From: an uncultured Tateyamaria sp.
GTDB taxonomy: Bacteria > Pseudomonadota > Alphaproteobacteria > Rhodobacterales > Rhodobacteraceae
Length of the DNA: 64,000 nucleotides
Reading direction: 5' to 3'
NCBI RefSeq assembly: GCF_947503705.1
Contig: NZ_CANNES010000002.1
Span: forward strand, 434,001 to 498,000
Shown: piece by piece, positions 19,318 through 35,070 of the stretch
Numbering within the stretch: position 1 is the first letter of the stretch
Layout: every line of letters starts with the position of its first letter
Program-made: the position numbers and the translations under genes
Notes under the pieces: generated by a model
Told to the model about the DNA's origin: nothing
The model's input: only the letters and a program-made list of their open reading frames with translations
Database searches by the model: none

Positions 19318-19320
19318 GAG

Positions 19321-20100
19321 ATGAGCCCGATCAAAACCCACCGCGAGGGTGCCATCCTGCAAGTCACGCTGGACCGGCCCAAGGCCAATGCCATCGACCT
19401 GGCCACCAGCCGGATCATGGGGGACGTGTTTCAGGACTTTCGCGACGATCCCGATCTGCGCGTGGCCATTGTAACCGGCGGAGGAGACAAGTTTTTTTGC
19501 CCAGGCTGGGACCTCAAGGCGGCGGCGGACGGCGACGCCGTGGATGGTGATTACGGCGTCGGCGGCTTTGGTGGATTGCAGGAAATGCGGGCCATGAACA
19601 AACCTGTCATTGCCGCTGTGAATGGCATTGCCTGCGGTGGCGGGCTGGAGCTTGCCCTGTCCGCCGACATCATTCTGGCGGCAGATCACGCCAGTTTTGC
19701 CCTGCCCGAAATACGCTCGGGGACGGTTGCGGATGCGGCCTCTGTCAAGCTGCCCAAACGGATTCCCTATCACATCGCGATGGAGCTTTTGCTGACCGGC
19801 CGATGGTTTGACGTGGAGGAGGCGCATCGCTGGGGGCTGGTCAATGAAATCGTGCCACAAGACCAGTTGAAGGACCGCGCCTGGGAGCTTGCGCGCCTGC
19901 TCGCCTCTGGCCCGCCGCTGGTTTACGCGGCGATCAAAGAGATCGTCCGGGACGCCGAGGACTCCAAGTTTCAGGACGCGATGAACCGGATTACCAAGAG
20001 CCAACTGGGGGCCGTCGAAACGCTCTATCGGTCAGAAGATCAGCTGGAAGGCGCGCGTGCATTTGCCGAGAAACGGGACCCAGTGTGGAAAGGGAAATGA
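19321..20100 (+). CDS. caiD: Enoyl-CoA hydratase, CaiD-like (carnitinyl-CoA dehydratase)
   Basis: A 259-residue crotonase. The opening ILQVTLDRPKANAIDLATS, the segment KFFCPGWDLKAAA and the ending FAEKRDPVWKGK closely resemble E. coli CaiD, which interconverts carnitinyl-CoA and crotonobetainyl-CoA. The oxyanion-hole motif is NGIACGGGLELALSAD. It follows the CoA ligase by three bases and closes the operon. The CaiD assignment is good by motif memory, but hydration of another gamma-substituted crotonyl-CoA cannot be excluded without a tree. Confidence 0.85.
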   Translation: MSPIKTHREGAILQVTLDRPKANAIDLATSRIMGDVFQDFRDDPDLRVAIVTGGGDKFFCPGWDLKAAADGDAVDGDYGVGGFGGLQEMRAMNKPVIAAVNGIACGGGLELALSADIILAADHASFALPEIRSGTVADAASVKLPKRIPYHIAMELLLTGRWFDVEEAHRWGLVNEIVPQDQLKDRAWELARLLASGPPLVYAAIKEIVRDAEDSKFQDAMNRITKSQLGAVETLYRSEDQLEGARAFAEKRDPVWKGK

Positions 20101-20138: not shown

Positions 20139-21473
20139 TTAGTCTATTTTCTCCTGACTGACATCAACGGGCAAACCGCTTGGCACTGCGGCTGGAATTC
20201 CCAAGCGCCCGTCAACTGACGCAGTGCCTGTCAGCGCCTTGAGGAAGGCGACAACCGCCTCTTGATTACCGCTCGACATGGCACGCGGTTTAATCGAGAT
20301 GGCGGCACGCTGACGGGCCAGTTCGCGCGGGTCCTGCCACACCATAAAGTCGATTTGTTCAAGCCACGGTACCTCGGGCAACGCCGCCATATCAGGTGTC
20401 CAGGCATCCAATTTTCCCTGGGGGTTCAGATGGTGTTTCACGATCCCTGCCAGGGTCGGGTAAGCCCCGTTGTGACCATAGGGTGCCGTCAGTTCCACAT
20501 TGCGCAGCATGGGCGTTCGGAAGGCATAGGCATCGGCCAGATCATCGCTTTCGCCCATATGGCCCACGTCGCGGACCATGGGGTCAAAGCGACGGGTGCG
20601 CCCCGGGCCGAAAGGTGGCAGGCCGATCGCGTGAAAACCTTGATCCGACATCAGCGGACCGGCATGGCATGTAGCACAGCCACCAGACCCGTAAAACACT
20701 GACATTCCTTGCTTTTCCCGCCGAGAAAGAGCGTCGGTATCCCCGGCCAGATAGGCATCAAACGGGCTGTCGAAACTGGTCCATTCAAAGATCATGAAGG
20801 CGCTGAGCGCGTTGGCGATATCGGCGATGGTGATGTCGGTCGCTTTGGTGATGTGGGGGAAGGCGCCTGCGAACCCTTCGGCATAGGCGGGGATGTGGCG
20901 AACCCGGTCAGTGAGGATCGGCCAAGCGTAATCAATGCGTTTGTGAACCGCGCCCGCGACCTCGTTTTCCTTGGGGTTTCCGGCCATCTCAAACTGCGCC
21001 ACGAGAGGAAAAATTGCCTGTGCAGCCAATAGGTTAGCGAGGCCCTCGGGCAACCACTCCTCTGCTGGGGAGTTAAAGCCGTTCTCGTAAGTATCTGCCA
21101 CGCTGAGCCGCCCATCGTGGAACATAACGGTGAGGTCTTTAGCACCGAGGTTCCACAGCGCGGGCGCATTGCGCGGGATGCGTTTGCGGATGCGATCCTC
21201 GCCCGTACCAGCGGTGCGTTTGGGGCCAAGGCCCACGCCTCCTTCACCGATGCCGAGACTTAGCCCGTCGGCGGTGCCGAGGTCGGGGTGGTGGCAGGTC
21301 GAACAGGCGATGTTCTTGTTGCCCGACAGGATCGGATCATAGAACAAAAGCTGGCCCAGTTTGGCTTGCGCCGGGTCGGCTTGGATGAAATCATCCGCAG
21401 TCAAAGGACGCGGCAGATCATCCGCCCAGGCGGGTGCAGCACAGAGGAATAGCGCATGAAAAAGATAGCGATA
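20139..21473 (-). CDS. Di-haem cytochrome c peroxidase / MauG family protein
   Basis: A periplasmic protein with two c-type haem motifs, CSTCH (in NIACSTCHHPD) and CATCH (in GGCATCHAGP). The secretion signal is readable as LFHALFLCAAPAWA followed by DDLPRP. Such proteins reduce H2O2 with electrons from small cytochromes, or oxidise protein or small-molecule targets. The 5' end is a problem: no ATG, GTG or TTG lies in frame just before the signal peptide, and the next in-frame starts run antisense through the divergent Sel1 gene. The end coordinate given here is therefore approximate; an undetected base error or an unusual start codon may be involved. Confidence 0.8.
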   Translation of the reverse strand, partial: YRYLFHALFLCAAPAWADDLPRPLTADDFIQADPAQAKLGQLLFYDPILSGNKNIACSTCHHPDLGTADGLSLGIGEGGVGLGPKRTAGTGEDRIRKRIPRNAPALWNLGAKDLTVMFHDGRLSVADTYENGFNSPAEEWLPEGLANLLAAQAIFPLVAQFEMAGNPKENEVAGAVHKRIDYAWPILTDRVRHIPAYAEGFAGAFPHITKATDITIADIANALSAFMIFEWTSFDSPFDAYLAGDTDALSRREKQGMSVFYGSGGCATCHAGPLMSDQGFHAIGLPPFGPGRTRRFDPMVRDVGHMGESDDLADAYAFRTPMLRNVELTAPYGHNGAYPTLAGIVKHHLNPQGKLDAWTPDMAALPEVPWLEQIDFMVWQDPRELARQRAAISIKPRAMSSGNQEAVVAFLKALTGTASVDGRLGIPAAVPSGLPVDVSQEKID

Positions 21474-21926
21474 ACCCTTGTTTTTATGGCCTTTCCAGCG
21501 TTCGCCGAAATTGAGGCTGGCCGCGATTTTATGGAGGCCGGCGACTATAAGGCCGCCTATGACGCGCTGTGGCCCGCGGCCCGGTCGGGCAATGCAGATG
21601 CCGAGGAACTCATTGGCGTCATGTACGCCTTGGGCCTTGGGGTCGAGCGGGACGACGAGCGTGCCTTCGAGTGGTATTTGCGATCCTCGATGAAAGGGCA
21701 TCCGGGCGCGCAAAGCGGGGTTGGCTGGTATTATGAGGTCGGGCGCGGCATGCCTGCCCCGGACCTTGTGCGCGCCTATATGTGGTACACGCTGAGCGCG
21801 ATTGGCGGCGACCCGGATGCAGCGATTTCGCTGGAAGAGGTGGTCAAGAAAATGACGCAGGAAGAGATCAATCGGGCGCATGTTCTGGTCGCTGACTACA
21901 AGGTGTGGATGTATCCGTTCCGGTGA
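21456..21926 (+). CDS. Secreted Sel1-repeat protein
   Basis: A 156-residue exported protein. The signal peptide MKKIAITLVFMAFPAFA is followed by two or three Sel1/TPR-like repeats, for example AEELIGVMYALGLGVERDDERAFEWYLRSS and AQSGVGWYYEVGRGM. Sel1 proteins act as scaffolds in the periplasm or envelope. The start has an AGAGGA box. Its first bases overlap the signal-peptide region of the divergent peroxidase gene, so the two share a very compact promoter region. Confidence 0.88.
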   Translation: MKKIAITLVFMAFPAFAEIEAGRDFMEAGDYKAAYDALWPAARSGNADAEELIGVMYALGLGVERDDERAFEWYLRSSMKGHPGAQSGVGWYYEVGRGMPAPDLVRAYMWYTLSAIGGDPDAAISLEEVVKKMTQEEINRAHVLVADYKVWMYPFR

Positions 21927-22052: not shown

Positions 22053-22601
22053 TCAGTCAAAATAGATCAGCCGTACAGCAGCACCGGGGTCATCAAAGAA
22101 TGGAAACGTCTTTGTCGCAGAAATGAAAACGGTCCGGTCCAAGTCCTGACTTCGCCAAGCCTGAACAACACTTTTGGACAGCCCCTGCCCGTTTTCTGCA
22201 TTCGTAGTTGCCACGTATTGCCGAACCCATGGCTGGGCGAGGTCAAACGCCTGTTGCGGGGTCAGGTCTTCGACCCCAACCAGACAAACCCGTTCGCTGC
22301 GATTGCCCAACACAACAAGGACATCACCCTCTGAGTTCTGCATAACTGCAAACCGGGGCATCCTGTTTATACCTGCAAACTGACCTTCTGTCGTTTCTTT
22401 AAACCCGGCGGCACGAAGCGCTACCGCTGTTTTTTCAAGCTTTGGGAAGTTCTTGCCGCAGATCGTTACGGCTTTCTGCGCCTGAGCAAATGCGCGCGCG
22501 CTGGCAGGTGTTGCGCTGATCTGCTTGGGATCGACGGGTGTGTCGCAGCCGGCCAAGATCAGGGCTAATACCATAAATATCGATTTACGTTTTAACATCA
22601 T
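22053..22601 (-). CDS. Putative lipoprotein, unknown function
   Basis: A 182-residue protein with a lipoprotein signal: charged MMLKRKS, hydrophobic IFMVLALI, then the lipobox LAGC with the acylated Cys at about residue 19. The mature part contains Cys residues in TICGKNFP and RVCLVG that may pair. No family was recognised. It is a lone gene between the Sel1 gene and the terminator of the TRAP operon and is more AT-rich than its neighbours. Confidence 0.72.
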   Translation of the reverse strand: MMLKRKSIFMVLALILAGCDTPVDPKQISATPASARAFAQAQKAVTICGKNFPKLEKTAVALRAAGFKETTEGQFAGINRMPRFAVMQNSEGDVLVVLGNRSERVCLVGVEDLTPQQAFDLAQPWVRQYVATTNAENGQGLSKSVVQAWRSQDLDRTVFISATKTFPFFDDPGAAVRLIYFD

Positions 22602-22758: not shown

Positions 22759-23817
22759 TTAGTTCAGGTCAGCCGCGCGGGCGGCGTTTACGTCCGCTTC
22801 GGCTGCTTCGACGGCCGAGACCAGCGCGTCAAAGATTTCGGGGCCGCGGGCCACGTTGTCTTTGAACCAGTCATAGACCGGTGTGGACGCTTCGGCGAAG
22901 GCGGCTTTTTGTGCTGGTGTGGGCACGTAAAGGTCACCACCACCGGCCACGAACTCTTCGTAAGCGGCGATGGATTTGCGCTTGGGCGACGCGAATGTCG
23001 CCTGTTGCAGCGCATAGAAGCCGTCAACCACGACACGACGCATGTCTTCGGGCATCGCCATGAAGTTGTTGTTCGACATCCACCACAGCGCGCCCATATA
23101 GGCGTGGCCGTCCAGCGTGACGTATTGCAGGCCCGCATCGGGGAATTTCATGCCCATGATGTCGGTGATGCCGTTCTTGGAGCCTTCGACAACACCGGTC
23201 TGGAACGAGGTGAACAGCTCGGGCCATGGGATCGGTGTCGGGGACGCGCCCAGCGCCTTGACCAGTTCCTGCGGCAGGTCGGCCACAACGGTCCGGATCT
23301 TCAGCCCTTCCATGTCGCCGGGCTCTGCCACGCGCCGCTTGGTGTTGGCAAAGTTGCGCCAGCCGCCGGTGTTGCCGATGGTCATCAGGCGGATGCTGTC
23401 GCCGCTGTCTTCCAGCGCCATATCGCGCATGGTGCGGGTGAAGTCGCCCGACAGCACGTGTTCGGCAATGCGGTCATCGGCCATCAGGTAAGGCAGATCG
23501 AGAACCTGCACATAAGGGAAGATGCCAGAAGCGCCACCCGAGGTGGAGATATAGACGTCGATGCTGCCATCGGCCACGCCTTGCAGGCATTCCGCACCGT
23601 TGGAGCAGAGCTGTGTCCCGATGAAAAGCTCCACGGCGATGGCACCGTTGGAAGCCGCCTCGACATAGTTCTTGAACACCACCAGACCGTCATAGTCTTC
23701 ATCATTGGTGTTGGAGTTGGCGGTGGCGCGGATTGTGTATTCCTGCGCCTGTGCCATGACGGCGGAACCGGCGACAAGCGCCGCCGCCGTAAGGGTTTTC
23801 AGGGTCGTTTTGAGCAT
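22759..23817 (-). CDS. TRAP transporter solute-binding protein (DctP type)
   Basis: A 352-residue periplasmic receptor with signal peptide MLKTTLKTLTAAALVAGSAVMAQA. The family core is seen in FKNYVEAASNGAIAVELFIGTQLCSN and in the LKIRTVVADLPQELVKALGASPTPIPWPELFTSFQ region, where the Arg of KIRT normally binds the substrate carboxylate or, here, possibly a sulfonate. It is the last gene of the operon and passes ligand to the DctQM membrane pair. The link to sulfoquinovose uptake is inference from the enzymes encoded upstream. Confidence 0.92.
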   Translation of the reverse strand: MLKTTLKTLTAAALVAGSAVMAQAQEYTIRATANSNTNDEDYDGLVVFKNYVEAASNGAIAVELFIGTQLCSNGAECLQGVADGSIDVYISTSGGASGIFPYVQVLDLPYLMADDRIAEHVLSGDFTRTMRDMALEDSGDSIRLMTIGNTGGWRNFANTKRRVAEPGDMEGLKIRTVVADLPQELVKALGASPTPIPWPELFTSFQTGVVEGSKNGITDIMGMKFPDAGLQYVTLDGHAYMGALWWMSNNNFMAMPEDMRRVVVDGFYALQQATFASPKRKSIAAYEEFVAGGGDLYVPTPAQKAAFAEASTPVYDWFKDNVARGPEIFDALVSAVEAAEADVNAARAADLN

Positions 23818-23853
23818 GTGGATAGATCCTCCCGTTTGAAACTCAATCTTATC

Positions 23854-25326
23854 TTAGTTGGCAAACCCCGTCAGGCGGGGAATGGTCATGGAAATGGCCG
23901 GAATGTAGGTGATCAGGAAAATCACTGCGATTTCGACCGCAAGAAAAGGCAGGATGGCCTTGGCGATGGTTTCGACCTTTTCCTTGCTCACCGCCGCCGC
24001 CACGAACAGGACCAGACCCATGGGCGGCGTTGCCAGCCCCACGGTCAGGTTCACACTCATGATGATGGCGAAATGGATGCTGTCGACGCCCAGATCGGTA
24101 AAGATCGGGGCAAGGATCGGCCCGAGGATGATGATCGCCGGCCCTGCGTCGAGGAACATGCCGACGATGAACAATAGCAGGTTGATCAGGAACAACAGGA
24201 TCAGCGGATTTTCCGACAGCGTCAGGATGTAATCGGCCAGGATTTGCGGTGCGTAGGACAGTGACACAACCGTTTTGAAGGCCATGGCCGCCCCCACCAG
24301 CAGCAACACAACGGCCGAAGTCAGCCCCGCCCTGCTGAGGATGTCGGGCAGGTCGCGCAGCGACATGGTGCGCAGCACGAAGAAGGCCACGAACAGGGCG
24401 TAGGCTACGGCGACAGCCGCCGCTTCGGTCGGGGTGAACACCCCGCCCAGGATGCCGCCCAGGATCAGCACCGGGGTTTGCAGCGGTACGATGGCCCGTT
24501 TGCAGATGGTGCGGAAATCCGAGCTGACCTGCGTCCGCAGGGCCAGCATCAGCGCATGCGCCACGGCGACCGCGCCAAGGAAGGTGACCCATGTCATCAG
24601 CCCCGACGTTTCGGGCAGTGGCGCCACGACCCAGATCAGCAAGCCGATGTTCAGCCGGACCAGCGCAAAGCTGACCCATCGTTCCAGCGGGCCCAGTTCA
24701 ACCCCGTCAAAGACGACCTTTTTGGCGGCGGGCAGATCATATTTGTCGGCTGTGAGCCGGATCATCACCATGAGGCCCACGCCGACCATGATCCCCGGCA
24801 CGATGCCTGCAAGGAACAACGCCGCAACGCTTTCGCCCATGACATAGGCGTAGATGATCATGATGCCCGAGGGCGGGATGATCGGCCCGATGACCGAGCT
24901 TGCCGCGGTGATGGCAGCGGCGTAGCGGCGGGTATAGCCCTCCTTCTCCATCGCGGGGACAAGCATGGAGCCAAGCGCTGACGTGTCGGCCACGGCAGAG
25001 CCCGACAAGCCCGCAAAGAGGATCGAGGACAGCACGTTCACCTGCGCCAGACCACCCCGAAGGTGGCCCATCAGCGCTTGGGAGAATTGGACGAGGCGTA
25101 TGGTGATCCCGCCTTTGTTCATCAGCTCACCGGCCAGCATGAAGAAGGGGATCGCCATCAGTGGGAAGCTGTCCATCCCATTGTAAACGTTACGATATAG
25201 AAGGGTGATGTCGCTTTCCTGCCCGTTCATCCAGAGCAGAAGACCAGGTGCGGCCAGAAGGCCAAAGAACACGGGCAGGCCGATCAGGAGAAACAGCAAG
25301 AAGAGGGGTAGGAACCATATCAGCAT
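23854..25326 (-). CDS. TRAP transporter large permease (DctM)
   Basis: A 490-residue membrane protein with about twelve predicted transmembrane helices, beginning LIWFLPLFLLFLLIGLPVFFGLL. It is the transport subunit that takes solute from the binding protein using a sodium gradient. Family signatures such as GSAVADTSALGSMLVPAMEKEGY and IGPIIPPSGIMIIYAYV are clear. It is somewhat longer than the common ~430 residues, with extra sequence around residues 190-260. It starts one base after the dctQ stop. Confidence 0.93.
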   Translation of the reverse strand: MLIWFLPLFLLFLLIGLPVFFGLLAAPGLLLWMNGQESDITLLYRNVYNGMDSFPLMAIPFFMLAGELMNKGGITIRLVQFSQALMGHLRGGLAQVNVLSSILFAGLSGSAVADTSALGSMLVPAMEKEGYTRRYAAAITAASSVIGPIIPPSGIMIIYAYVMGESVAALFLAGIVPGIMVGVGLMVMIRLTADKYDLPAAKKVVFDGVELGPLERWVSFALVRLNIGLLIWVVAPLPETSGLMTWVTFLGAVAVAHALMLALRTQVSSDFRTICKRAIVPLQTPVLILGGILGGVFTPTEAAAVAVAYALFVAFFVLRTMSLRDLPDILSRAGLTSAVVLLLVGAAMAFKTVVSLSYAPQILADYILTLSENPLILLFLINLLLFIVGMFLDAGPAIIILGPILAPIFTDLGVDSIHFAIIMSVNLTVGLATPPMGLVLFVAAAVSKEKVETIAKAILPFLAVEIAVIFLITYIPAISMTIPRLTGFAN

Positions 25327-25911
25327 CTATTCACTCCCCGCCGCCATGTCGCCCAGATCAAGGTCGGGCAATTTATCACCGCCGCCCAGCATCGTGACGA
25401 TGCTGCGCAGGATAAGCTCGATGTTCACCACCAACAGAAGGATCACGCCAACCAGCAGCGACAGCATCATCCAGCTGCGCGGCACCCGGAACCAGCCGTC
25501 AAATGTGGGGAGGTAAAGCGAGGCAGTGGCAAAGCGCCCGCCAAAGCCGGTGACTTCCTTGTATCCGATCTGGACCGCGACGATCAGGATCAAAAGCGAG
25601 ATGAGCAAGAGGACCAGCCCCAGCATCGCCGCCACCCGCTTGGACATAAAGCCAGAGATCATGTCGAGCGCCACAAAGCCGCCACGCCGGAAGGCGGTGG
25701 GGGCCATCAGCCCCGTCATCCACATCATGCAAAAGCGCGCAGCCTCATCCGGCCAGGGCAATGCGTTGTTGAAAACATAGCGTGCGACCACCTGAATCAG
25801 GATCGCCGCAACCATAAACGCGATGGCTATGATGCCGATGCCGCGCCCAAACCTGAGCACGAATGCGTTCACCGCGCTGATCGGTGCAAGCACCGTCAGT
25901 AATAAGCCCAT
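25327..25911 (-). CDS. TRAP transporter small permease (DctQ)
   Basis: A 194-residue protein with four predicted membrane helices (FMVAAILIQVVARYVF; the central MLGLVLLLISLLILIVAVQI; MMLSLLVGVILLLVV). It has the family feature LPWPDEAARFCMMWMTGLMAPTAFRRGGFVALD. It pairs with the following large permease gene, which it abuts. Confidence 0.92.
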   Translation of the reverse strand: MGLLLTVLAPISAVNAFVLRFGRGIGIIAIAFMVAAILIQVVARYVFNNALPWPDEAARFCMMWMTGLMAPTAFRRGGFVALDMISGFMSKRVAAMLGLVLLLISLLILIVAVQIGYKEVTGFGGRFATASLYLPTFDGWFRVPRSWMMLSLLVGVILLLVVNIELILRSIVTMLGGGDKLPDLDLGDMAAGSE

Positions 25912-26007
25912 AATGGGCCCTCCCTATGTTCGGTCGCCCGACAGTTTGTCCTGTCGTGGCCCATTTTCCGCTTTCACCCCGCGGGCGGGTCGTTTTGGCC
26001 CCTGTTG

Positions 26008-26029
26008 AGGCGTACCCAAAGGTACGCCT
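26008..26029. repeat. Palindrome AGGCGTACC-N4-GGTACGCCT
   Basis: A perfect 9-base stem with a CAAA loop between the flavin reductase stop and dctQ. It has no poly-T, so it is more likely a partial attenuator or an RNA-stabilising element than a full terminator. It is related to the palindromes at 22732 and 40417. Confidence 0.65.
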
Positions 26030-26042
26030 GACGGGCGGGGCC

Positions 26043-26561
26043 CTAGTCTTGTTTTATGCTTCCAAAGCCACCGCCAAAGAAGGTGAGCGGCGCGCCGGCG
26101 CGCATCTGGGTTCGTTGCACCTGACCCACGATGATCACGTGATCACCGGCATCATGTGCCGCCACCCTGCGACATTCGAACCGTGCAAGGCAATGATCAA
26201 TCAGCGGCACGCCGTCTGCGTTCAACTGGTGGGCCGTATCGTTCAGCGCGTGCGCGTTGCGCGCCACCTGGGTGCACAGGTCTTGTTGTTCCGCCGCCAG
26301 CACGTGGATGGCGTAGTGATCCGCCGCCTCGAAATAGGGGAAGCGTCGCGCGGAGCGGTCCACCGACCACAACACAAGCGCCGGGTCCAGCGACACGGAC
26401 GAAAAGCTGTTGGCCACGATGCTGATCGGGCCATCGGCGCTGGGCGCCGTGATCACCGTGATCCCGGTGGCGAATTTACCGAAGGCGTCGCGCAGTTGGC
26501 GCCCGCTGTCAGCGTCGGGGGTAAAAACTGTGGGTTGGTTGGGGTCCTGCATCGTCATCAT
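26043..26561 (-). CDS. NAD(P)H:flavin oxidoreductase (SmoA-like)
   Basis: A 172-residue flavin reductase with the split-barrel FMN-binding fold: LRDAFGKFATGITVITAPS, then IVANSFSSVSLDPALVLWSVDRSARRFPYF, then DHVIIVGQV. It would supply FMNH2 to the two-component monooxygenase two genes upstream in the same operon. It overlaps the aldo/keto reductase gene by four bases. In the sulfo-SMO pathway of Agrobacterium this job belongs to SmoA. The reductase family is certain; the partner is inferred from position. Confidence 0.9.
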   Translation of the reverse strand: MMTMQDPNQPTVFTPDADSGRQLRDAFGKFATGITVITAPSADGPISIVANSFSSVSLDPALVLWSVDRSARRFPYFEAADHYAIHVLAAEQQDLCTQVARNAHALNDTAHQLNADGVPLIDHCLARFECRRVAAHDAGDHVIIVGQVQRTQMRAGAPLTFFGGGFGSIKQD

Positions 26562-27448
26562 GCCACCTCGTGTCCAAGGGATGCCTCATAGAGGCGGAAC
26601 CATGTGGGCCGGTCGAGTGTGACGCGTGTTGCGTCGCTGATCCGCTTGATCCGGTCCAGGTTGTTGGTGCCCATCACGGGCAGGATGCCAGCGGGATGCG
26701 CCAGCAAAAACGCCACGGCCACGGCGGCGCGATCGACGCCCGCGCTGGCCGCGATTTCGTCCATTACCACGTGCAGCCGGTCATTGCCCGACATCAGCCC
26801 GCCACCGCCCAGCGGCGACCACGCCATCAGGTGGTGCCCGTGCCGCTGGTGAAAGGCCAGATCGCCATTGGTGAAAGGTTCGATCACTCCCAACGACATT
26901 TCGATCTGGTTCGTGACCATCGGCGTTTTCATCGCCGATTGCAGCAGTTCAAAGTCATAGGGCCGGAAATTCGACACACCCACGGCCCCCACCTTGCCCG
27001 AGGCCACCAGATCATCCAGTGCGCCGCCGGTTTCATGGTGGTCCATGAACGGGTCGGGCCGGTGGATCAGCAGCAGGTCGATATGATCAATCGCCATATC
27101 CCGCAGCGAGTTTTCCACCGATTGTTCGATATGGGCGCGGCTGGTGTCATAATATTTGACCGGTGCGTCTGCGTAGCGGCCCACGGGGGCCACGATGTCG
27201 CATTTGGTCACGATCTCCATCTTTGACCGCAGGCCGGTATCGGCCTTGAGCGCCTCACCGAGGATCGCCTCGGCGATATAGCCGCCATAGATGTCGGCCT
27301 GGTCAAAACTTGTGATCCCCTGGTCGATGCAGGCGTGAATTTTCGCCTGAACATGGGATACCGACGTGTCGGCATCATCGCCCAGCCGCCACATGCCATA
27401 GACGATGCGGGACATTTCGAGGGATTTAGATAGTTGGACGCGGTCCAT
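26558..27448 (-). CDS. Aldo/keto reductase (SmoB-like)
   Basis: A 296-residue TIM-barrel NAD(P)H-dependent reductase. The catalytic tetrad is readable: Asp49 (SFDQAD), Tyr54 (IYGGY), Lys82 (TKCDI) and His129 (LLIHRPD). The C-terminal cofactor-binding stretch is GILPVMGTNNLDRI. In the sulfo-SMO pathway SmoB reduces 6-oxo-glucose, the product of desulfonation, to glucose. Its place between the flavin reductase and the monooxygenase, with overlaps of four bases and one base, supports that role, but the substrate is not proven by sequence. Confidence 0.9.
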   Translation of the reverse strand: MDRVQLSKSLEMSRIVYGMWRLGDDADTSVSHVQAKIHACIDQGITSFDQADIYGGYIAEAILGEALKADTGLRSKMEIVTKCDIVAPVGRYADAPVKYYDTSRAHIEQSVENSLRDMAIDHIDLLLIHRPDPFMDHHETGGALDDLVASGKVGAVGVSNFRPYDFELLQSAMKTPMVTNQIEMSLGVIEPFTNGDLAFHQRHGHHLMAWSPLGGGGLMSGNDRLHVVMDEIAASAGVDRAAVAVAFLLAHPAGILPVMGTNNLDRIKRISDATRVTLDRPTWFRLYEASLGHEVA

Positions 27449-28602
27449 TAGCGGCGCACTCCTGCAGCAAGTGGGGTTGCGGGAGCCGATGCGGGCACCC
27501 GGCCATACACATGGGGCAAGGAACAGGTTTTCAAGTGCGGCATGACGCGGGCACCAAAGTGTTTCGCCTCGTCAATGTGCGGGTAGCCGGAGAAGATGAA
27601 GGCACGGATGCCCATTTTCTGATACTCTTCGATCTTGGACATGACCTGATCGGTGGAGCCGACAAGCGCCGCACCACAGCCTGACCGCGCCCGGCCCACG
27701 CCCGTCCAGAGGTTCGGTTCGACATAGCCGAACTTGTCCGCCAACTCGCGCGCCTTGGCCTGATGGGCCACGCCCAGCGAGGTTGAATCAAGCGCCCGGT
27801 CACGGATCAACTGCCCGTATTCGTCATCGAGTTTCGACACGATATAATCGGCATATTCACGCGCTTCGGCTTCGGTATCGCGCACAATCATGTGGACCCG
27901 TAGCCCGTAATCCAGCGTGCGGTCGTATTTTTCTGCGACCTTGTGCACATCCTGCATCCGGCCCTTGAGGTTTTCCGTCGGCTCGGGCCACATCAGATAG
28001 ACGTCGCAATGCTGGCCACACAATTCGAGAGCGGAGGGCGAATAACCTCCGAAATAGAGCAGCGGGCCACCAGTCTGGTAGGGCCGCGCGGGGTCTGTCG
28101 TGACCCCTTCGAAATTGTAGACCTCGCCCTTGTAGTTGATCTCGTCCTGCGTCCAGGCCTGTTTCAGGATCTCGACCACCTCGCGGGAGCGTTGATAGCG
28201 GAAATTGCTGTCCGCCTTTTCGCCGGGGAAGTCGGAGGAGATGATGTTGACCGTCAGCCGCCCCTCAAGCATGTGGTCGAGCGTCGCAATGGTGCGCGCC
28301 AGCATGATCGGCTGCATCTCGCCGCAGCGGACGGCAGCCAGCAGGTTGATCTGCGAGGTGATCGGCGCGCAACCGGCCACAAAAGACAGGGTGTCCTGGC
28401 CCACCTGGTAAGAAGACGGGCACAGGATGTTGCGGAACCCCTGCGTCTCAGCCTCGCGTACGATGTTCGAGCAATGCGCCCAGGAGGAGCGCAGATCGCC
28501 ATCGGGCACGCCAAGAAACTGATAGTCGTCCGAACACAGCGCCGAAAACCACGACACCTCGGCCGCGTCGAGATCGGGAGAGGTGATGGGGACGACGGTC
28601 AT
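27448..28602 (-). CDS. LLM-class FMNH2-dependent monooxygenase (SmoC/SsuD-like)
   Basis: A 384-residue luciferase-like flavin monooxygenase related to alkanesulfonate monooxygenase SsuD. Typical segments are NIISSDFPGEKADSNFRYQRSREVVEILKQAW, GPLLYFGGYSPSALELC and FIFSGYPHIDEA. Such enzymes use FMNH2 and O2 to split a C-S bond, releasing sulfite and an aldehyde. With a flavin reductase and an aldo/keto reductase in the same transcript, sulfoquinovose is the leading candidate substrate (SmoC role). The ATG at 28602 was chosen because the upstream in-frame ATG at 28650 lies inside the putative operator. Confidence 0.88.
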   Translation of the reverse strand: MTVVPITSPDLDAAEVSWFSALCSDDYQFLGVPDGDLRSSWAHCSNIVREAETQGFRNILCPSSYQVGQDTLSFVAGCAPITSQINLLAAVRCGEMQPIMLARTIATLDHMLEGRLTVNIISSDFPGEKADSNFRYQRSREVVEILKQAWTQDEINYKGEVYNFEGVTTDPARPYQTGGPLLYFGGYSPSALELCGQHCDVYLMWPEPTENLKGRMQDVHKVAEKYDRTLDYGLRVHMIVRDTEAEAREYADYIVSKLDDEYGQLIRDRALDSTSLGVAHQAKARELADKFGYVEPNLWTGVGRARSGCGAALVGSTDQVMSKIEEYQKMGIRAFIFSGYPHIDEAKHFGARVMPHLKTCSLPHVYGRVPASAPATPLAAGVRR

Positions 28603-28647
28603 GGCAGAACTTTCAGATGCTTGAACTTGCCCCTTGCGTAACACTGT

Positions 28648-28665
28648 CATTGATGTAGATCAATG
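28648..28665. promoter_or_regulatory. Palindrome CATTGAT-N4-ATCAATG, candidate GntR operator
   Basis: A perfect 7-base inverted repeat with a 4-base spacer in the gap between the monooxygenase and GntR genes. A further ATCAAT lies just downstream (28670-28675). AT-rich palindromes of this size are usual for GntR-family regulators. Confidence 0.6.
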
Positions 28666-28703
28666 GTGTATCAATTTTCTTTGCCCCGTGTCCTTGCCGC
28701 CTC

Positions 28704-29414
28704 ATGAACAGCCCGCGCCAATCCCCTCAATCGCTGCCGATCTATGTGCAGATCGCCGAGCTGTTGACCCGTGACATTGTTGCGGGCCGGTTGATCGACG
28801 GGGAGCGTTTGCCGCCCGAGCGGGACATGGCGACGGAGCTTGGCGTATCGGTGGGCACCCTACGCAAAGCCCTGCGGGATATGACCGAGAAGGGGTTGGT
28901 GGAGCGGGTTCAAGGCTCTGGCAACTACATCCGGGCGGGGGGCGACACCGGCACCGTTTATGCGATGTTTCGGCTGGAACTCCTGGCAGGCGGGGGCCTG
29001 CCCCGCGCCCAGGTGCTCAGCGTTGATCTGCTGGACAAGCCGGATGATCTACCTGCCTTTGGCACGTCGAACACAGGCACCCGGATCCGCCGTTTACGGT
29101 CGCTCAATGACACAATCATGGGCGTGGAAGAGATCTGGCTGGATGCGGATGCGGGTCTGGTGTCTGAGGCGACGATGTCCGAATCGCTATACGCCACCTA
29201 TCGCAAGGATCTGGGCATCTGGATTCAACGAGCCGAAGACCGGGTGAGCCTGGGGCCAGTGCCCGCGTGGGCGCCGGACGCCTTTCCCCTGCCCCTCGGC
29301 CATACGGCAGGGTATATTGAGCGGCTCAGCTGGTCTGACCCGCCTGCCCCGATCGAATTTTCGCGCACGTGGTTTGACCCCACCCGCGCGGTCTATGTGC
29401 AACGACTGAAATAA
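28704..29414 (+). CDS. GntR family (HutC/UTRA-type) transcriptional regulator
   Basis: A 236-residue regulator. Residues ~10-75 form the winged helix: PIYVQIAELLTRDIVAGRLIDGERLPPERDMATELGVSVGTLRKALRDMTEKGLVERVQGSGNYI. The rest is a UTRA-like ligand domain (TRIRRLRSLNDTIMGVEEIWLD, YIERLSW, FSRTWFDP). It is divergent from the monooxygenase operon and followed by the Gfo/Idh gene, so it probably controls both, responding to the substrate or a breakdown product. Confidence 0.92.
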   Translation: MNSPRQSPQSLPIYVQIAELLTRDIVAGRLIDGERLPPERDMATELGVSVGTLRKALRDMTEKGLVERVQGSGNYIRAGGDTGTVYAMFRLELLAGGGLPRAQVLSVDLLDKPDDLPAFGTSNTGTRIRRLRSLNDTIMGVEEIWLDADAGLVSEATMSESLYATYRKDLGIWIQRAEDRVSLGPVPAWAPDAFPLPLGHTAGYIERLSWSDPPAPIEFSRTWFDPTRAVYVQRLK

Positions 29415-29426
29415 GGAACGCCGCAA

Positions 29427-30533
29427 ATGGCTCAACACATACGCTATGGCATCATCGGGTGCGGGATGATGGGGCAGGAACATATGCGCAATATTGCGCT
29501 CTTGCCCGATGCCAGCGTGGCCGCGTTCTTTGAGCCGGATGCGGAGATGGCCGCGCGCGCCCTGGCCATCGCCCCGGCCGCCAAATCGGTGGAGAGCCTG
29601 GAGGCCCTGCTGGCCGAGCCAGAGCTGGACTGCCTGCTGATCGTCAGCCCGAACTTTCGCCATGTCGAGCAGATGACGGCGATCCTGGAGGCGCGGCCCC
29701 TGCCCCTGCTGGTGGAAAAGCCGCTGTTCACCGATCCGGCGGATGCGGTGCGGCTGGCAACGTTTCGGGATGCATACCCGGCCCCCGTCTGGGTCGCGAT
29801 GGAATACCGCTATATGCCGGTGATCTCTGAATTCCTGAACCGTGCGGAGGCCGCCACCGGCGGGATCAAGCAATTGTCGATCCGCGAGCACCGCTTTCCC
29901 TTTCTTGAAAAGGTGGGCGATTGGAACCGGTTCAATCGCTACACGGGCGGGACGTTTGTCGAAAAATGCTGCCACTTCTTTGATCTGATGCGCCTGACAC
30001 TGGGGGCCGAGCCGGTGCGCGTCATGGCCTCTGCCGCCCAAGCCGTGAACCATTTGGACGAAGCTTACGGCGGTGAGACGCCCGACATCATCGACAGCGG
30101 CTATGTCATTGTGGATTTCGACAGCGGGGCGCGGGCGATGCTGGAACTGTGCATGTTTGCCGAGGGCAGCGCCTATCAGGAAGAGCTGTCAGCCGTGGGC
30201 CCCGTGGGCAAGGTCGAAGCCTTTGTCCCCGGTCCGGGACGGTTCTGGCCTGCGCATCTGGGGGCCGCCCCGGTGGCCAAACTGGTGGAAAGCCCCCGCG
30301 CGCCGCAAGGGCCGGTGGTGCACGAAATCCCGGTAGATCCGACATTGCTGGACGCCGGCGATCACAACGGATCGACGTTCTATCAGCATCAGAAGTTCGT
30401 GGACCTGGTGCGCGGCGCGGCGGCGGCACCGGAGGTGTCGCTGGCCGATGGCTGGGCGGCCGTGGCGATGGGACTGGCCGCGCAGGAAAGCGCACGGACA
30501 GGTCAGGCGGTTGATCCACGGCGGTGGATGTGA
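29427..30533 (+). CDS. Gfo/Idh/MocA family NAD-dependent oxidoreductase, possible sulfoquinovosidase
   Basis: A 368-residue protein with an N-terminal Rossmann fold (YGIIGCGMMGQEHMRNI), the family lysine motif LLVEKPLF and a C-terminal alpha/beta domain with GGTFVEKCCHFFDLMRL. Members oxidise sugars or use NAD transiently in glycoside cleavage. NAD-dependent sulfoquinovosidases (family GH188) are known to belong to this fold. No GH31 sulfoquinovosidase is present near the monooxygenase operon, so this gene could fill that role. The start has an AAGGAA box 12 bases after gntR. Confidence 0.88.
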   Translation: MAQHIRYGIIGCGMMGQEHMRNIALLPDASVAAFFEPDAEMAARALAIAPAAKSVESLEALLAEPELDCLLIVSPNFRHVEQMTAILEARPLPLLVEKPLFTDPADAVRLATFRDAYPAPVWVAMEYRYMPVISEFLNRAEAATGGIKQLSIREHRFPFLEKVGDWNRFNRYTGGTFVEKCCHFFDLMRLTLGAEPVRVMASAAQAVNHLDEAYGGETPDIIDSGYVIVDFDSGARAMLELCMFAEGSAYQEELSAVGPVGKVEAFVPGPGRFWPAHLGAAPVAKLVESPRAPQGPVVHEIPVDPTLLDAGDHNGSTFYQHQKFVDLVRGAAAAPEVSLADGWAAVAMGLAAQESARTGQAVDPRRWM

Positions 30534-30952: not shown

Positions 30953-32275
30953 CTACCGCGCCAGCGCGTCCTTGAACGCGTGCCAGGACGCCTTTGGTGT
31001 CCGCTCCAGCGTGTCGAAATCCACGTATACCATGCCGAACCGTTTTTCGTAACCCAGCGCCCATTCGTAATTGTCCAAGAGCGACCAGGCCATGTAGCCT
31101 TGGATATTCGCCCCCTTGGCGATGGCGTCGCGGACTGCGCCGAGATGCTGGTTGAAATAGTCGATGCGGGCCGTGTCATTGACCGCGCCCCCCACGATCA
31201 CGTCCGGGTTCGCCATCCCGTTTTCCGTCACAAAGATCGGCAGATCGCCGGTATACTCTGCGCCCGTCCGCATCAGGAAATCGTGCAGGCCCTGGGGATA
31301 GATTTCCCAGCCCATCTGGGTTTTGGGCAGCGGCCCTTCGACCTCGTGATGGTGCGGCCAGGGGCCATTGTCGGGGCCGATCAGCTTGCGGGTATAGTAA
31401 TTCAAACCCACCCAATCCAGCGGGGCTTGAATCGTGGGGAAATCATCCTGCCAACCGTCGGGGAAGTGATCCCCAAGGTCTCGGACCAGCCGGTCGGGAT
31501 AGCGGCCATGGAACACGCCCGAGAGGTAGAAGCGGTTGTAATAGTCGTCATAGAGCGCCGCGGCCTCGGCGGCCTCCGGGCTGTCATCGGCGGGGGTGGC
31601 CCATTCCATGTTGAAGACGCAGCCAAGGTTTTCCATCCCCAGCCCCCGCATCCGTTGGATCGACGTCCCGTGTGCCAAGAGCACGTGGTGCATCGCGCGG
31701 GCGGCCGCGCGGATGTCGCGCAGGCCCGGGGCGTGATGGCCCAGAAAATGCGACAGAAAGGCGACGCACCAAGGCTCGTTGATGGGCGCGACGGAATACA
31801 TGCGATCCCCGATCCGACCCATCACCGTCTCGGTGAAATCACCAAACCAAGCCGCGATGTCGCGATTGCGCCAGCCCCCTTGATCGGCCAGCGCGCTGGG
31901 CAGTTCCCAATGATAGAGCGTGGCGCAGGGTTTCAGCCCGCGTTCCAGCATCGCGTCGGTAAGCCGGTCATAGAAATCGAGGCCCTGCGCGTTCACCGTC
32001 CGCCCGTCTGGCATCACTCGCGCCCAACTGGTGGAAAACCGGTAAGCGTCAAAGCCTGCCTCCTTGAGCAGGTCAAGATCGTCGCCAAACCGGTGGTAAT
32101 GGTCACAGGCTCGTGCACCATCTTCGGCCCGCACCACGTTGCCCGGCGTGGCGGCGAAATCGTCCCACATGGCGCGGCCTGCGCCGCCGAACTGGTGCCC
32201 TTCGATCTGGTAGGCGGAGGTCGCTGCCCCAAAGAGGAAACCGGGCGGAAAATCAGAGCGGGTGTATTTCAGCAT
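30953..32275 (-). CDS. GH1 beta-glucosidase/glycosidase
   Basis: A 440-residue retaining glycoside hydrolase of family 1. The acid/base is Glu167 (PINEPWC) and the nucleophile Glu351 (FVTENGMA); FLFGAATSAYQIEG opens the barrel. It has no signal peptide, so it acts in the cytoplasm on imported disaccharides or aryl glucosides, yielding glucose. The ATG at 32275 shares one base with the aglR stop, so the two are translationally coupled and the enzyme should be under AglR control. Confidence 0.94.
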   Translation of the reverse strand: MLKYTRSDFPPGFLFGAATSAYQIEGHQFGGAGRAMWDDFAATPGNVVRAEDGARACDHYHRFGDDLDLLKEAGFDAYRFSTSWARVMPDGRTVNAQGLDFYDRLTDAMLERGLKPCATLYHWELPSALADQGGWRNRDIAAWFGDFTETVMGRIGDRMYSVAPINEPWCVAFLSHFLGHHAPGLRDIRAAARAMHHVLLAHGTSIQRMRGLGMENLGCVFNMEWATPADDSPEAAEAAALYDDYYNRFYLSGVFHGRYPDRLVRDLGDHFPDGWQDDFPTIQAPLDWVGLNYYTRKLIGPDNGPWPHHHEVEGPLPKTQMGWEIYPQGLHDFLMRTGAEYTGDLPIFVTENGMANPDVIVGGAVNDTARIDYFNQHLGAVRDAIAKGANIQGYMAWSLLDNYEWALGYEKRFGMVYVDFDTLERTPKASWHAFKDALAR

Positions 32276-33306
32276 CAGGTGCCATCCTTGAGCGGGCCGC
32301 TGGAGGAGCCAACGACAAATTCGGTTTCCCAGAGCCTCTGGGCCAGCGGCATATCGGGGTTCTGAATGCGGTCGATCAACATCTGGGCCAGTGCCGCGCC
32401 TGCCTCGCGGACTGACGATTGCACGGCAGTGAACACAGGTGTGTCGACCCCGATCCGCAGATAGCTGAGACAATCGTCAAAGGTCACAATGCTGGTGTCA
32501 GCGCCCACGCGCAGACCGCGTTCTTCGGCGGCGCGGCGCACGCCCAGCGCGGAAATGATCGACGACACCACAAAAGCGGTGGGCGCCGGGTTACGTTCAA
32601 GCATGGCGCTGGCGCTGGCGTAACCGTGTCCTTCGGTCATGTCGTTGCTCGACATGCAGGCGGGGTCGAGGGTGAGGCCGTTATTGGCGATGGCCGCCTC
32701 GAACCCCATACGGCGACGCATGGCAAAGTCCAGCGCCTCGTCCCCGTTGATCAACGCCAGACGTTTGTGCCCCAGATCAATCAGGTGCTGCGTGGCCATT
32801 TCAAAGGCGCGGCGGTTGTTCACGTCCAGCCAGGAGTAATCGACGGTGCTGCCGCTGGCGCGCCCGTGCACCACGAAGGGCAGCCCAAGCTGATCCAGCA
32901 GCGGCAGCCGCGCGTCCCGTTGCCGTGGGGCGTGGATGATCACCCCGTCGACCGCGCCCCGTGCCTTGAGACTGCGATAGGCCTCGTCTTCGTCCTGTTC
33001 GTCCACGCGGGTCAGCATCATCTCATAGCCATGGGCGGCATAGGTCTCGCCCGCTCCCGCCATGAAGTCGCCAAAGATCGGGTTCACCATCTCACCCGAA
33101 TCGCGGACCGAGATCACATGACCGATACAGCGCGACCGCCCCATGGCCAGTCCCTGTGCACGGGCATTCGGACTGTAGGAATGTGCCTCGGCGGCCTTGA
33201 CCACACGCTGGCGTGTAGCCTCGGAAACCTCGGGGTACCCGTTGAGGGCCCGAGACACCGTTGTTTGGCTCAAATTAAGTAGTTTTGAGAGTTCTTTGAG
33301 GTTCAC
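32275..33306 (-). CDS. aglR: LacI family regulator of the alpha-glucoside genes
   Basis: A 343-residue repressor. The N-terminal helix-turn-helix and hinge are seen in MNLKELSKLLNLSQTTVSRALNGYPEVSEATRQRV; the rest is a periplasmic-binding-protein-like sugar domain. It is divergent from aglEFGAK and coupled to the GH1 gene. Two CAAAGCGCTT-type palindromes lie in the gap, one 12 bases before its own start and one before aglE, which predicts autoregulation as well as repression of the transporter. Confidence 0.93.
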   Translation of the reverse strand: MNLKELSKLLNLSQTTVSRALNGYPEVSEATRQRVVKAAEAHSYSPNARAQGLAMGRSRCIGHVISVRDSGEMVNPIFGDFMAGAGETYAAHGYEMMLTRVDEQDEDEAYRSLKARGAVDGVIIHAPRQRDARLPLLDQLGLPFVVHGRASGSTVDYSWLDVNNRRAFEMATQHLIDLGHKRLALINGDEALDFAMRRRMGFEAAIANNGLTLDPACMSSNDMTEGHGYASASAMLERNPAPTAFVVSSIISALGVRRAAEERGLRVGADTSIVTFDDCLSYLRIGVDTPVFTAVQSSVREAGAALAQMLIDRIQNPDMPLAQRLWETEFVVGSSSGPLKDGT

Positions 33307-33317
33307 GAGGGTCTTTC

Positions 33318-33329
33318 CAAAGCGCTTGC
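33318..33329. promoter_or_regulatory. AglR operator site 1 (imperfect)
   Basis: CAAAGCGCTTGC matches the LacI-family CAAAGCGCTTTG core except at the last positions. It sits 12 bases before the aglR start codon. Confidence 0.6.
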
Positions 33330-33429
33330 ACAGTCCGCGCGACGCTAACGAAAGCGATGTGGAAGGTCAAAACTTTCGATGGATTGCAAGCCTGATACAA
33401 AACTAATAGCGAATTGCGCATGACTTTGT

Positions 33430-33435
33430 TTGACA
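33430..33435 (+). promoter_or_regulatory. Possible -35 box of the aglE promoter
   Basis: TTGACA is an exact sigma-70 -35 hexamer, 34 bases before operator 2. The matching -10 is weak (AACGTT region at about 33453). Confidence 0.35.
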
Positions 33436-33468
33436 GCGGCCAAATTTTAGGCAACGTTCTGCGCATTC

Positions 33469-33480
33469 CAAAGCGCTTTG
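33469..33480. promoter_or_regulatory. AglR operator site 2 (perfect)
   Basis: CAAAGCGCTTTG is a perfect 12-base palindrome of the LacI-family type with the central CG, about 70 bases before the aglE ATG and just past a TTGACA box. Repressor bound here would block the aglE promoter. Confidence 0.75.
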
Positions 33481-33551
33481 ATTAAAACCAAGGCGCGAAG
33501 GCCGGTTCACAATACCGTTCCGACTTGGACACCTATGGGAGGAAGACCAAT

Positions 33552-34910
33552 ATGAAAACGACACTTCTGGCCAGCGCAGCAGCACTGGCTCTTACGGCAG
33601 CGACCGCATCGGCAGATGGCCATCTGGCCTTTGCCCCCGGCGAAGGGCCGTTCAGCTGGGACAGCTACAATGCATGGGCCGAAAACGCGCCTGACCTGAG
33701 CGGCCAGACCGTCACGGTCTATGGCCCCTGGCTGACGCCCGAGGATGGCTATTTCAACAACGCCATGGCCTATTTCGAAGCCGCCACAGGCGCTGACGTC
33801 ATTTACACAGGCTCCGATTCGTTCGAACAGCAAATCCTGATCGACGCCGAAGCCGGTTCCGCCCCCAACATCGCTGTGTTCCCACAGCCTGGCCTCGCCG
33901 CTGTAATGGCCGCCAAAGGTCAGTTGTACCCGCAGCCCGCGGGCATGGCCGATTGGGTCAAGGACAACTATGCCGCTGGTCAGTCCTGGGTTGATCTGGG
34001 CACGTACGCCGATGCCGATGGCAACGACCAGATGTACGGTTTCTTCTACAACGTGAACGTCAAGTCGCTGGTCTGGTACAACCCCGAAAACTTCGAGGAT
34101 GCAGGCTATGACATCCCCGAGACCATGGAAGAGCTGAAAGCGCTGACAGACCAGATCGTCGCCGATGGCGAAACGCCCTGGTGTATCGGTCTGGGTTCCG
34201 GTGCCGCCACAGGTTGGCCTGCGACCGACTGGGTCGAAGACATGATGCTGCGCACGGTTGAGCCATCGGTCTATGACCAGTGGACCACCAACGAGATCCC
34301 CTTTGACGACCCACGCGTTGTGGCCGCCATCGAGGAATTCGGCCACTTTGCCCGTGACGACGCCAAGGTGTCGGGTGGTGCAGGTGCCGTTGCATCGACA
34401 GACTTCCGCGACAGCCCCAAGGGTCTCTTCTCTTCGCCCCCACAGTGCTACATGCACCGTCAGGCGTCGTTTGTGCCGGCCTTCTTCCCTGAGGATGTAG
34501 AGTTTGGTGTCGACACCGGCTTCTTCTACTTCCCCTCCTATGCGTCCAAAGACCTGGGCAACCCGGTTCTGGGTGGCGGTACGCTGATGGCGATCACCAA
34601 CCCCTCTGATGCGGCCGGTGCTTTGATGGAATACTTCCAACTGCCCATCAGCCACGAAGTCATGATGGCCCAGACCGGTTTCCTGACACCCCATAAGGGC
34701 GTGAACACCGAAGCCTACAAGGACGACACGCTGCGCGCGCTGGGTGACGTTCTGCTGGGGGCCACAACCTTCCGCTTTGACGGGTCCGACCTTATGCCCG
34801 GTGGCGTCGGTGCCGGCACGTTCTGGACCGGTATGGTCGACTATACCGGTGGCAAGGATGCCGCGGCTGTGGCTGCCGATATCCAGGCCAGCTGGGACGC
34901 GTTGAAGTAA
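33552..34910 (+). CDS. aglE: Alpha-glucoside ABC transporter binding protein
   Basis: A 452-residue periplasmic receptor of the family 1 carbohydrate-binding type. The signal peptide is MKTTLLASAAALALTAATASA. Sequences such as QTVTVYGPWLTPEDGYFNNAMAYFEAATGADVIYTGSDSFEQQI and GFFYNVNVKSLVWYNPENFEDAGYDIPETMEELKAL match AglE, the sucrose/maltose/trehalose receptor described in Sinorhizobium. The ATG at 33552 after GGGAGGAAGACCAAT is the start. It heads aglEFGAK and is followed by a strong hairpin. Confidence 0.94.
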   Translation: MKTTLLASAAALALTAATASADGHLAFAPGEGPFSWDSYNAWAENAPDLSGQTVTVYGPWLTPEDGYFNNAMAYFEAATGADVIYTGSDSFEQQILIDAEAGSAPNIAVFPQPGLAAVMAAKGQLYPQPAGMADWVKDNYAAGQSWVDLGTYADADGNDQMYGFFYNVNVKSLVWYNPENFEDAGYDIPETMEELKALTDQIVADGETPWCIGLGSGAATGWPATDWVEDMMLRTVEPSVYDQWTTNEIPFDDPRVVAAIEEFGHFARDDAKVSGGAGAVASTDFRDSPKGLFSSPPQCYMHRQASFVPAFFPEDVEFGVDTGFFYFPSYASKDLGNPVLGGGTLMAITNPSDAAGALMEYFQLPISHEVMMAQTGFLTPHKGVNTEAYKDDTLRALGDVLLGATTFRFDGSDLMPGGVGAGTFWTGMVDYTGGKDAAAVAADIQASWDALK

Positions 34911-34929
34911 CTCAACCACTCGCGAAGCT

Positions 34930-34957
34930 GACCAGTCCGCCCTGTTGCGGGCTGGTC
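34930..34957 (+). promoter_or_regulatory. Hairpin between aglE and aglF
   Basis: GACCAGTCCGC and GCGGGCTGGTC form an 11-base stem with one G-T pair and loop CCTGTT. There is no T run, so it probably protects the aglE message or partly attenuates, keeping receptor levels above permease levels. Confidence 0.7.
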
Positions 34958-35070
34958 CAACAAGACCGCAAGGTCGCGATACGGCTGGCACACAGCCGCA
35001 ACAAGATGACCCACACACGGTTTCGGATTGACGACCGCAAGACGGTCAATGGTGGCTAGGGAGGCGACCC

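Follow-up and report, generated by a model that had tools for sequence, protein, structure and literature searches.

The gene cluster at positions 22759-30533 of the window, the 64,000-nucleotide stretch of an uncultured Tateyamaria sp. genome analysed here, is confirmed by sequence comparison as a locus of the sulfoquinovose monooxygenase (sulfo-SMO) type. Very probably it encodes a complete sulfo-SMO operon, in which sulfoquinovose (SQ), a sulfosugar of plants and algae, or its glycerol glycoside, sulfoquinovosyl glycerol (SQGro), would be imported by a tripartite ATP-independent periplasmic (TRAP) transporter, processed by the GH188 glycosidase SqgA, desulfonated by SmoC and converted to glucose by SmoB, under the control of a GntR regulator. 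As the same solute-binding protein, DctP, recurs in a second, unrelated SQ pathway, the substrate of the TRAP transporter DctPQM is most likely SQ or SQGro. The cluster comprises the following features:

27448..28602, minus strand: smoC, luciferase-like monooxygenase (PF00296), predicted sulfoquinovose monooxygenase dependent on reduced flavin mononucleotide (FMNH2); the listed open reading frame runs to 28650
26558..27448, minus strand: smoB, aldo/keto reductase predicted to convert 6-dehydroglucose to glucose (65.9% identity to 7BBY)
26043..26561, minus strand: smoA-type flavin reductase, putative supplier of FMNH2 (PF01613, 112.8 bits)
25327..25911, minus strand: dctQ, TRAP small membrane subunit (PF04290)
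23854..25326, minus strand: dctM, TRAP large membrane subunit (PF06808, 371 bits; TIGR00786 above cut-off)
22759..23817, minus strand: dctP, TRAP solute-binding protein, proposed SQ/SQGro binder (PF03480)
28655..28676, minus strand: conserved direct-repeat element AATTGATACACYATTGATCTAC, candidate GntR operator (kept in 80/82 upstream regions)
28704..29414, plus strand: GntR/UTRA (HutC-type) regulator (PF00392 and PF07702)
29427..30533, plus strand: sqgA, predicted GH188 NAD+-dependent sulfoquinovosidase of the Gfo/Idh fold (8ZN9, 560 bits; 8QC2/8QC3, 341 bits)

An earlier note on this DNA had described the gene places, the overlaps of 1 base (smoC and smoB) and 4 bases (smoB and the flavin reductase gene), the order dctQ, dctM, dctP and the divergent GntR and Gfo/Idh genes, all of which were verified on the window. 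Every named gene family of the locus has a Pfam match above cut-off, and all three TRAP subunits are present and belong to the right families, in agreement with the note's expectation of an importer other than the ATP-binding cassette (ABC) transporter of Agrobacterium. Because solved relatives align from Met17 of the listed frame, smoC probably starts at 28602 rather than 28650, which puts the divergent genes 101 bases apart. Among named organisms, the closest relatives belong to Tateyamaria, with SmoC 90-93% identical, and the host genome measures 4.43 Mb.

The two enzymes of desulfonation match structures that we take to be sulfo-SMO enzymes (7OH2, 7OLF and 7BBY), with 7OH2 presumably SmoC and 7BBY presumably SmoB; the PDB file names of 7OH2 and 7BBY are generic (alkanesulfonate monooxygenase and aryl-alcohol dehydrogenase), and a literature search with the codes 7OH2, 7OLF, 8ZN9 and 7BBY returned no paper. 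SmoC is identical to 7OH2 at 302 of 383 aligned residues (78.9%, 708 bits) and 78.3% identical to 7OLF (707 bits), as against 191 bits for 7JV3 and 183 bits for SsuD (1NQK/1M41), the non-SmoC chains. In its alignment with 7JV3, inspected by eye, the W, R, H, R and Y residues presumed to act in catalysis or binding by SsuD are conserved. SmoB shares 195 of 296 residues with 7BBY (65.9%, 411 bits), the next match being YdhF at 198 bits. The flavin reductase looked for in a sulfo-SMO cluster was found as the PF01613 protein whose gene overlaps smoB; its best NCBIfam model is FerA (187.6 bits, under the cut-off of 260), and no chain named SmoA occurs among its 20 PDB matches. The sulfo-SMO (sulfo-ASMO) type is defined by SmoC and SmoB in one cluster (PMC13372026, in excerpt), and the two genes adjoin here. 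The ABC importer SmoEFGH was not found, TRAP genes occupying its place; we take this importer as non-defining, because importers vary between clusters and the definition in that excerpt names none. The chemistry anticipated by the earlier note, that of the Agrobacterium pathway, is thus borne out at the level of sequence.

SqgA, the glycosidase, matches 8ZN9 over residues 1-362 (68.8% identity, 560 bits) and, again over its full length, two structures of the GH188 enzyme SqgA reported by Kaur et al. 2023 (PMC10755693, in excerpt), namely 8QC2 (341 bits over residues 2-363) and 8QC3 (341 bits over 4-362). It is 48.3% identical to ArSqgA, for which a sulfonate triad (R166, L170, K172) and active-site residues (K107, Y136, E189, H193, H321) are described in the excerpt of PMC10755693. 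Our residue check covered these eight positions, leaving out Glu163, and all eight are conserved: K98, Y127, R156, L160, K162, E179, H183 and H313 of SqgA correspond to K107, Y136, R166, L170, K172, E189, H193 and H321 of ArSqgA. SqgA differs from the Tyr variant of PMC11465081 (in excerpt). No signal peptide was seen by eye. In Agrobacterium, the sulfoquinovosidase of the sulfo-SMO pathway belongs to GH31; the GH31 catalytic domain PF01055 was found nowhere in the genome studied here, the same search being positive in 6 of 14 control genomes. On these comparisons the Gfo/Idh protein is a predicted GH188 NAD+-dependent sulfoquinovosidase standing in place of the GH31 enzyme, as fits the different glycosidase that the earlier note had foreseen without naming it.

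Gene order was compared across the loci of the best 80 of 579 SmoC matches in public genomes. SmoB follows SmoC and the GntR gene is divergent in all 80; GH188 is encoded in 76 (in two of the other four the contig ends) and a flavin reductase in 75. TRAP genes follow in 63 loci and are lacking in 16, and one contig ends before them. Such conservation places the gene order beyond chance. Plasmids hold 29 SmoC matches, of which seven were inspected: five carry the full set, including that of Rhizobium sp. SL42, outside Rhodobacterales; a Qingshengfaniella plasmid has a SmoC relative with no smoB, flavin reductase or GH188 gene at the locus; and the seventh has a SmoC relative (51%) with sugar ABC genes nearby and no smoB.

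These data bear on two other ways of reading the enzymes. It is scarcely credible that SmoC is a general alkanesulfonate monooxygenase for sulfur scavenging, akin to SsuD, with sugar genes nearby by accident: the NCBIfam alkanesulfonate monooxygenase model does assign 246.7 bits to SmoC, yet this is below its cut-off of 518.2, and the 708 bits against SmoC-type chains compare with 183 against SsuD, with SmoB in 80/80 loci and GH188 in 76/80. Scavenging of the SsuD type was rejected on bit scores, and the grouping with SsuD that the earlier note had named as fatal to its proposal did not appear (707-708 bits for 7OH2/7OLF, 183-191 for SsuD/7JV3). We give as little credence to a reading in which the Gfo/Idh protein would be an inositol-type dehydrogenase of the ordinary kind and the adjoining GH1 gene (30953-32473, minus strand) would encode the true glycosidase. 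Pfam and NCBIfam name only an oxidoreductase superfamily for the Gfo/Idh protein, and the GH1 gene does lie near the cluster, but the best inositol dehydrogenase match reaches 54 bits, compared with 341 for the GH188 structures and 560 for 8ZN9, and all eight checked GH188 residues are present. The GH1 protein scores above the cut-off of the beta-glucosidase model TIGR03356, its gene has LacI and sugar ABC genes for neighbours, and only 12 of the 80 loci have a relative inside the stretch, five of them the nearest relatives (L003-L007). On this model, this setting and its absence from 68/80 fetched stretches, GH1 was rejected as the sulfoquinovosidase.

The substrate of the importer was approached through the distribution of DctP in a family sample of 198 genomes from 198 genera, with orthologues defined by at least 68% identity (the next match lies at 48%). 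SmoC is present in 88 of these genomes and a DctP orthologue in 72; both occur in 54, within 8 kb of each other in 50 and on different contigs in 4. The 18 genomes with DctP only comprise 4 with sulfo-SMO-like loci lacking SmoC, 2 with DctP elsewhere (L093, L098) and 12 with loci of a sulfo-Embden-Meyerhof-Parnas (sulfo-EMP) type (L091, L092, L094, L097, L099-L101, L103, L105-L108). In all 12 of the latter, with genes called by our own script, dctQMP and a GH188 gene (49-55% identity) are accompanied by a PfkB kinase, a LacD-type aldolase and a PF02952 isomerase; a DeoR regulator is found in 11, and no locus lacks all three of hydroxyacid dehydrogenase, aldose epimerase and aldehyde dehydrogenase. 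The best PDB match of the kinase is 7AG6, a sulfofructose kinase (204 bits); the aldolase matches 8TNF best (335 bits) and sulfofructosephosphate aldolase less well (60 bits). No PDB match was obtained for the isomerase, whose family, PF02952, is also that of SqvD, an SQ isomerase (PMC9594981, in excerpt). We read this arrangement as a putative sulfo-EMP-type cluster of mixed parts, chemically unrelated to sulfo-SMO. Its isomerase was not found in the genome studied here, in a search that had no positive control.

If the importer carries SQ, DctP without SmoC is expected in another SQ operon, and this was tested in a second sample of 385 class-wide genomes, an overlapping draw in which at least G000, G055 and G075 belong to the first sample as well. 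At a threshold of at least 80% identity, which left out one match at 49%, DctP is present in 11 of the 385 genomes, from six families, and 8 of the 11 also have SmoC. The three without it (G219, G314 and G418, the last two of the same genus) all have DctP in a sulfo-EMP-type cluster with GH188 (L178-L180). The DctP tree requires 5 changes of the EMP label, of which supported branches force at least 4; the pathway context of the importer therefore appears to have changed several times. The N-terminus of DctP resembles a signal peptide by eye.

It is quite unlikely, in our judgement, that the enzymes follow the sulfo-SMO pathway and the TRAP transporter carries some other compound (e.g. a short sulfonate or a sugar acid), SQ entering through an unlinked ABC importer. 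In favour of this, the known TRAP ligands among the matches are organic acids, ectoine and isethionate, and ABC importer genes (SBP_bac_1 proteins) replace the TRAP genes in some sulfo-SMO clusters; it is opposed by the presence of the same DctP in a second SQ operon with GH188 (12/12 loci, and 3/3 in the second sample) and by what stands in clusters that lack TRAP genes. We fetched 20 of the 34 SmoC genomes without this DctP, no genes being called in one (L120). In two (L116, L121), the flavin reductase gene is immediately followed by that of a sugar-ABC binding protein, in the position held here by the TRAP genes. In L111, L112 and L119 a relative of such a binding protein is encoded at a greater distance within the stretch, and in L126 one is found on the opposite side of the cluster. 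The ABC binding proteins of these six loci fit a single role filled by either type of transporter. In L113 an ABC set comes after smoB and includes a binding-protein-like gene without a Pfam match, and other ABC sets were seen nearby by eye in L115 and L128.

Regulation was addressed in the smoC upstream regions, of which 82 of 88 were readable by script. The direct repeat AATTGATACACYATTGATCTAC is found with at most 5 mismatches in 80 of the 82 and in 0 of 1640 shuffles, starts 72-78 bases before the smoC start in 68 of the 82, and occurs once in its own genome at up to 3 mismatches. It is kept in two loci that have GntR and lack SmoC (L095, with 1 mismatch, and L104, with 5) and, at up to 6 mismatches, is absent from all 12 sulfo-EMP-type loci. 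Since the repeat follows GntR across loci, the element at 28655-28676 is probably the GntR operator. An FNR-box-like palindrome, TTGAT-N4-ATCAA (TTGATGTAGATCAA, plus strand, 28650-28663), overlaps the element; its palindromic form occurs in only 39/82 upstream regions, against 80/82 for the direct repeat, and so is probably incidental, and control of the FNR type was rejected. A promoter and terminator scan of the region gave 4 promoter-like sites (2.8 expected), none of them at the divergent promoter.

We propose that DctPQM brings SQ and/or SQGro into the cell, where a cytoplasmic SqgA would free SQ through transient NAD+-dependent oxidation at C3. The flavin reductase would make FMNH2, with which, together with O2, SmoC would cleave the C-S bond to yield sulfite and 6-dehydroglucose, and SmoB would reduce the latter to glucose. 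GntR, acting at the intervening direct-repeat element, would control the two divergent units. Sequence comparison establishes which genes are SmoC, SmoB and GH188, their conserved order, the element and the return of this importer in a second SQ pathway; within this scheme we infer the importer substrate, induction by SQ, binding by GntR, flux to glucose and the fate of the sulfite.

Several observations weigh against a complete operon with an SQ-carrying importer. The DctP model is weak at the pocket (mean predicted local distance difference test score 73, residues 199-224 below 50), and the TRAP binding proteins nearest to it in fold include uncharacterised proteins and binders of ectoine, sugar acids and isethionate, at 14-24% identity, a diversity that makes the fold uninformative on the ligand. 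Ten of the 72 DctP orthologues lie outside a complete SQ pathway cluster (4 on another contig than SmoC, 4 in SmoC-less loci and 2 elsewhere, with a GH188 relative at 43% near one of the last, L098). In one SmoC-positive genome of the second sample (G506) the 17 kb fetched around the TRAP genes hold no SQ enzyme, SmoC being on another contig. SmoC occurs without this TRAP transporter in 34 of the 88 family genomes, so the transporter is not obligatory for SmoC clusters. For the sulfite, neither the sulfite oxidase domain PF00174 (positive in 9 of 14 control genomes; enzymes of the SoeABC type were not searched for) nor the exporter family PF03601 (positive in 6 of 14) was found in the genome. 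Elsewhere, a putative sulfate/sulfite exporter gene lies beside or near the cluster in L083 (the Rhizobium sp. SL42 plasmid), L084, L086, L116 and L121. The four SmoC-less loci (L095, L096, L102 and L104) keep parts of the sulfo-SMO set together with the TRAP genes; a SmoC remnant sought in them was not recognisable (best E 0.17), and another C-S cleaving enzyme may serve there.

Two further genes are associated with the TRAP genes:

21456..21926, plus strand: Sel1-repeat protein (PF08238)
20139..21422, minus strand: di-haem cytochrome c peroxidase (CCP_MauG; PF03150, 117.9 bits), start approximate

Sel1 and peroxidase genes lie close downstream of all 11 class-wide DctP orthologues, in six families, and often follow the TRAP genes in both sulfo-SMO and sulfo-EMP-type clusters (L178-L181, L183-L185, L091-L108). 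In the family sample, peroxidase relatives of at least 52% identity occur in 52 of 72 DctP-positive and 4 of 126 DctP-negative genomes (Fisher p 3e-26, with ancestry ignored), a threshold chosen after inspection of values that, among the matches listed, continue without a clean gap (54, 53, 52, 51, 50). Of these 52 relatives, 42 lie within 10 kb of DctP and 10 do not; by a hand count among the matches listed, 52 of the 53 genomes with a relative of at least 54% have DctP. In 78 TRAP loci whose downstream sequence extends for 3.5 kb or more, a count that includes near relatives and leaves out 13 further loci with too little sequence, the peroxidase lies within 6 kb in 56 and is absent in 22. 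In 7 of the 12 sulfo-EMP-type loci, the reading frames of the peroxidase and the kinase share 1 or 4 bases, with starts set by script.

Given the 11/11, the 52/72 against 4/126 and the 7/12 frame overlaps, we tentatively suggest, with considerable doubt, that dctQMP, Sel1 and peroxidase may form a portable sulfosugar uptake module joined to at least two unrelated SQ pathways, in which the peroxidase might have a real periplasmic role in SQ use, e.g. in maturation of the binding protein or by action on a redox partner in the periplasm. Protection against H2O2 leaked by SmoC, considered as another role, is made less likely by the further link of the peroxidase to the sulfo-EMP-type operon, where no oxygenase was seen. 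Peroxidase copies not near the TRAP genes are often found, by eye, next to an ABC/SelD-like block of genes (L134, L135, L137, L138, L141), so that a shared insertion site is possible.

The surroundings of the cluster were also noted. On one side, 30953-36306 forms a separate sugar locus of the GH1 beta-glucosidase, a LacI regulator and sugar ABC transporter genes (the last by eye). On the other, two adjoining genes at 17302-20100 resemble, by eye, an NDP-forming acyl-CoA synthetase and an enoyl-CoA hydratase, and a short lipoprotein-like gene with no Pfam match lies at 22053-22601. A relative of the latter (61%) was seen in only one of the 80 fetched loci (L058, Roseibium marinum), about 2.7 kb past the start of SmoC, in a cluster that has no TRAP genes.

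Known systems share parts of this arrangement. The Agrobacterium sulfo-SMO pathway has the same SmoC, SmoB and flavin reductase and the same products, sulfite and glucose (PMC9594981 and PMC13372026, both in excerpt); it differs in its SQGro ABC transporter and its sulfoquinovosidase (PMC9594981, in excerpt), where TRAP and GH188 stand here. Roseobacter-clade sulfo-SMO clusters with GH188 SqgA have the same enzymes and glycosidase as this locus, GH188 being near-universal among them (Kaur 2023, PMC10755693, in excerpt), so this part of the finding is already known; the excerpted text does not discuss the importer, which figures or tables may show. The Novosphingobium-type sulfo-ASMO pathway (SquD/SquF) uses the same two-step chemistry, and the N. 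aromaticivorans cluster has no SsuE-type flavin reductase (both PMC9594981, in excerpt); SmoC relatives on Novosphingobium plasmids are only about 48-51% identical. The isethionate TRAP binding protein IseP (8T9T, 8TE9) is about 20% identical to DctP and binds a C2 sulfonate, not a sugar.

Judged by titles and the opening lines of abstracts, searches that joined sulfoquinovose with TRAP or tripartite transporters gave no paper on SQ import by TRAP, and an earlier mention is possible. SQ import by TRAP is not the topic of PMC12421959 in its excerpted text, and the excerpts of the 2022 and 2026 reviews and of an ISME J 2026 survey contain no word starting with TRAP. A search for sulfoquinovose with cytochrome c peroxidase gave off-topic papers only. 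Provisionally, then, the cross-pathway evidence on the importer and the link to the peroxidase are new.

SQ is produced on the order of 10 billion tons per year, and bacteria of the Roseobacter clade are believed to take part in its consumption at sea (PMC10755693, in excerpt). If the identification of the importer is true, its gene would serve as a marker for SQ/SQGro uptake in sea-water data, valid across two pathways, and a sulfosugar would join the substrates of TRAP transporters. The link to the di-haem peroxidase offers a lead to a possible unrecognised periplasmic step.

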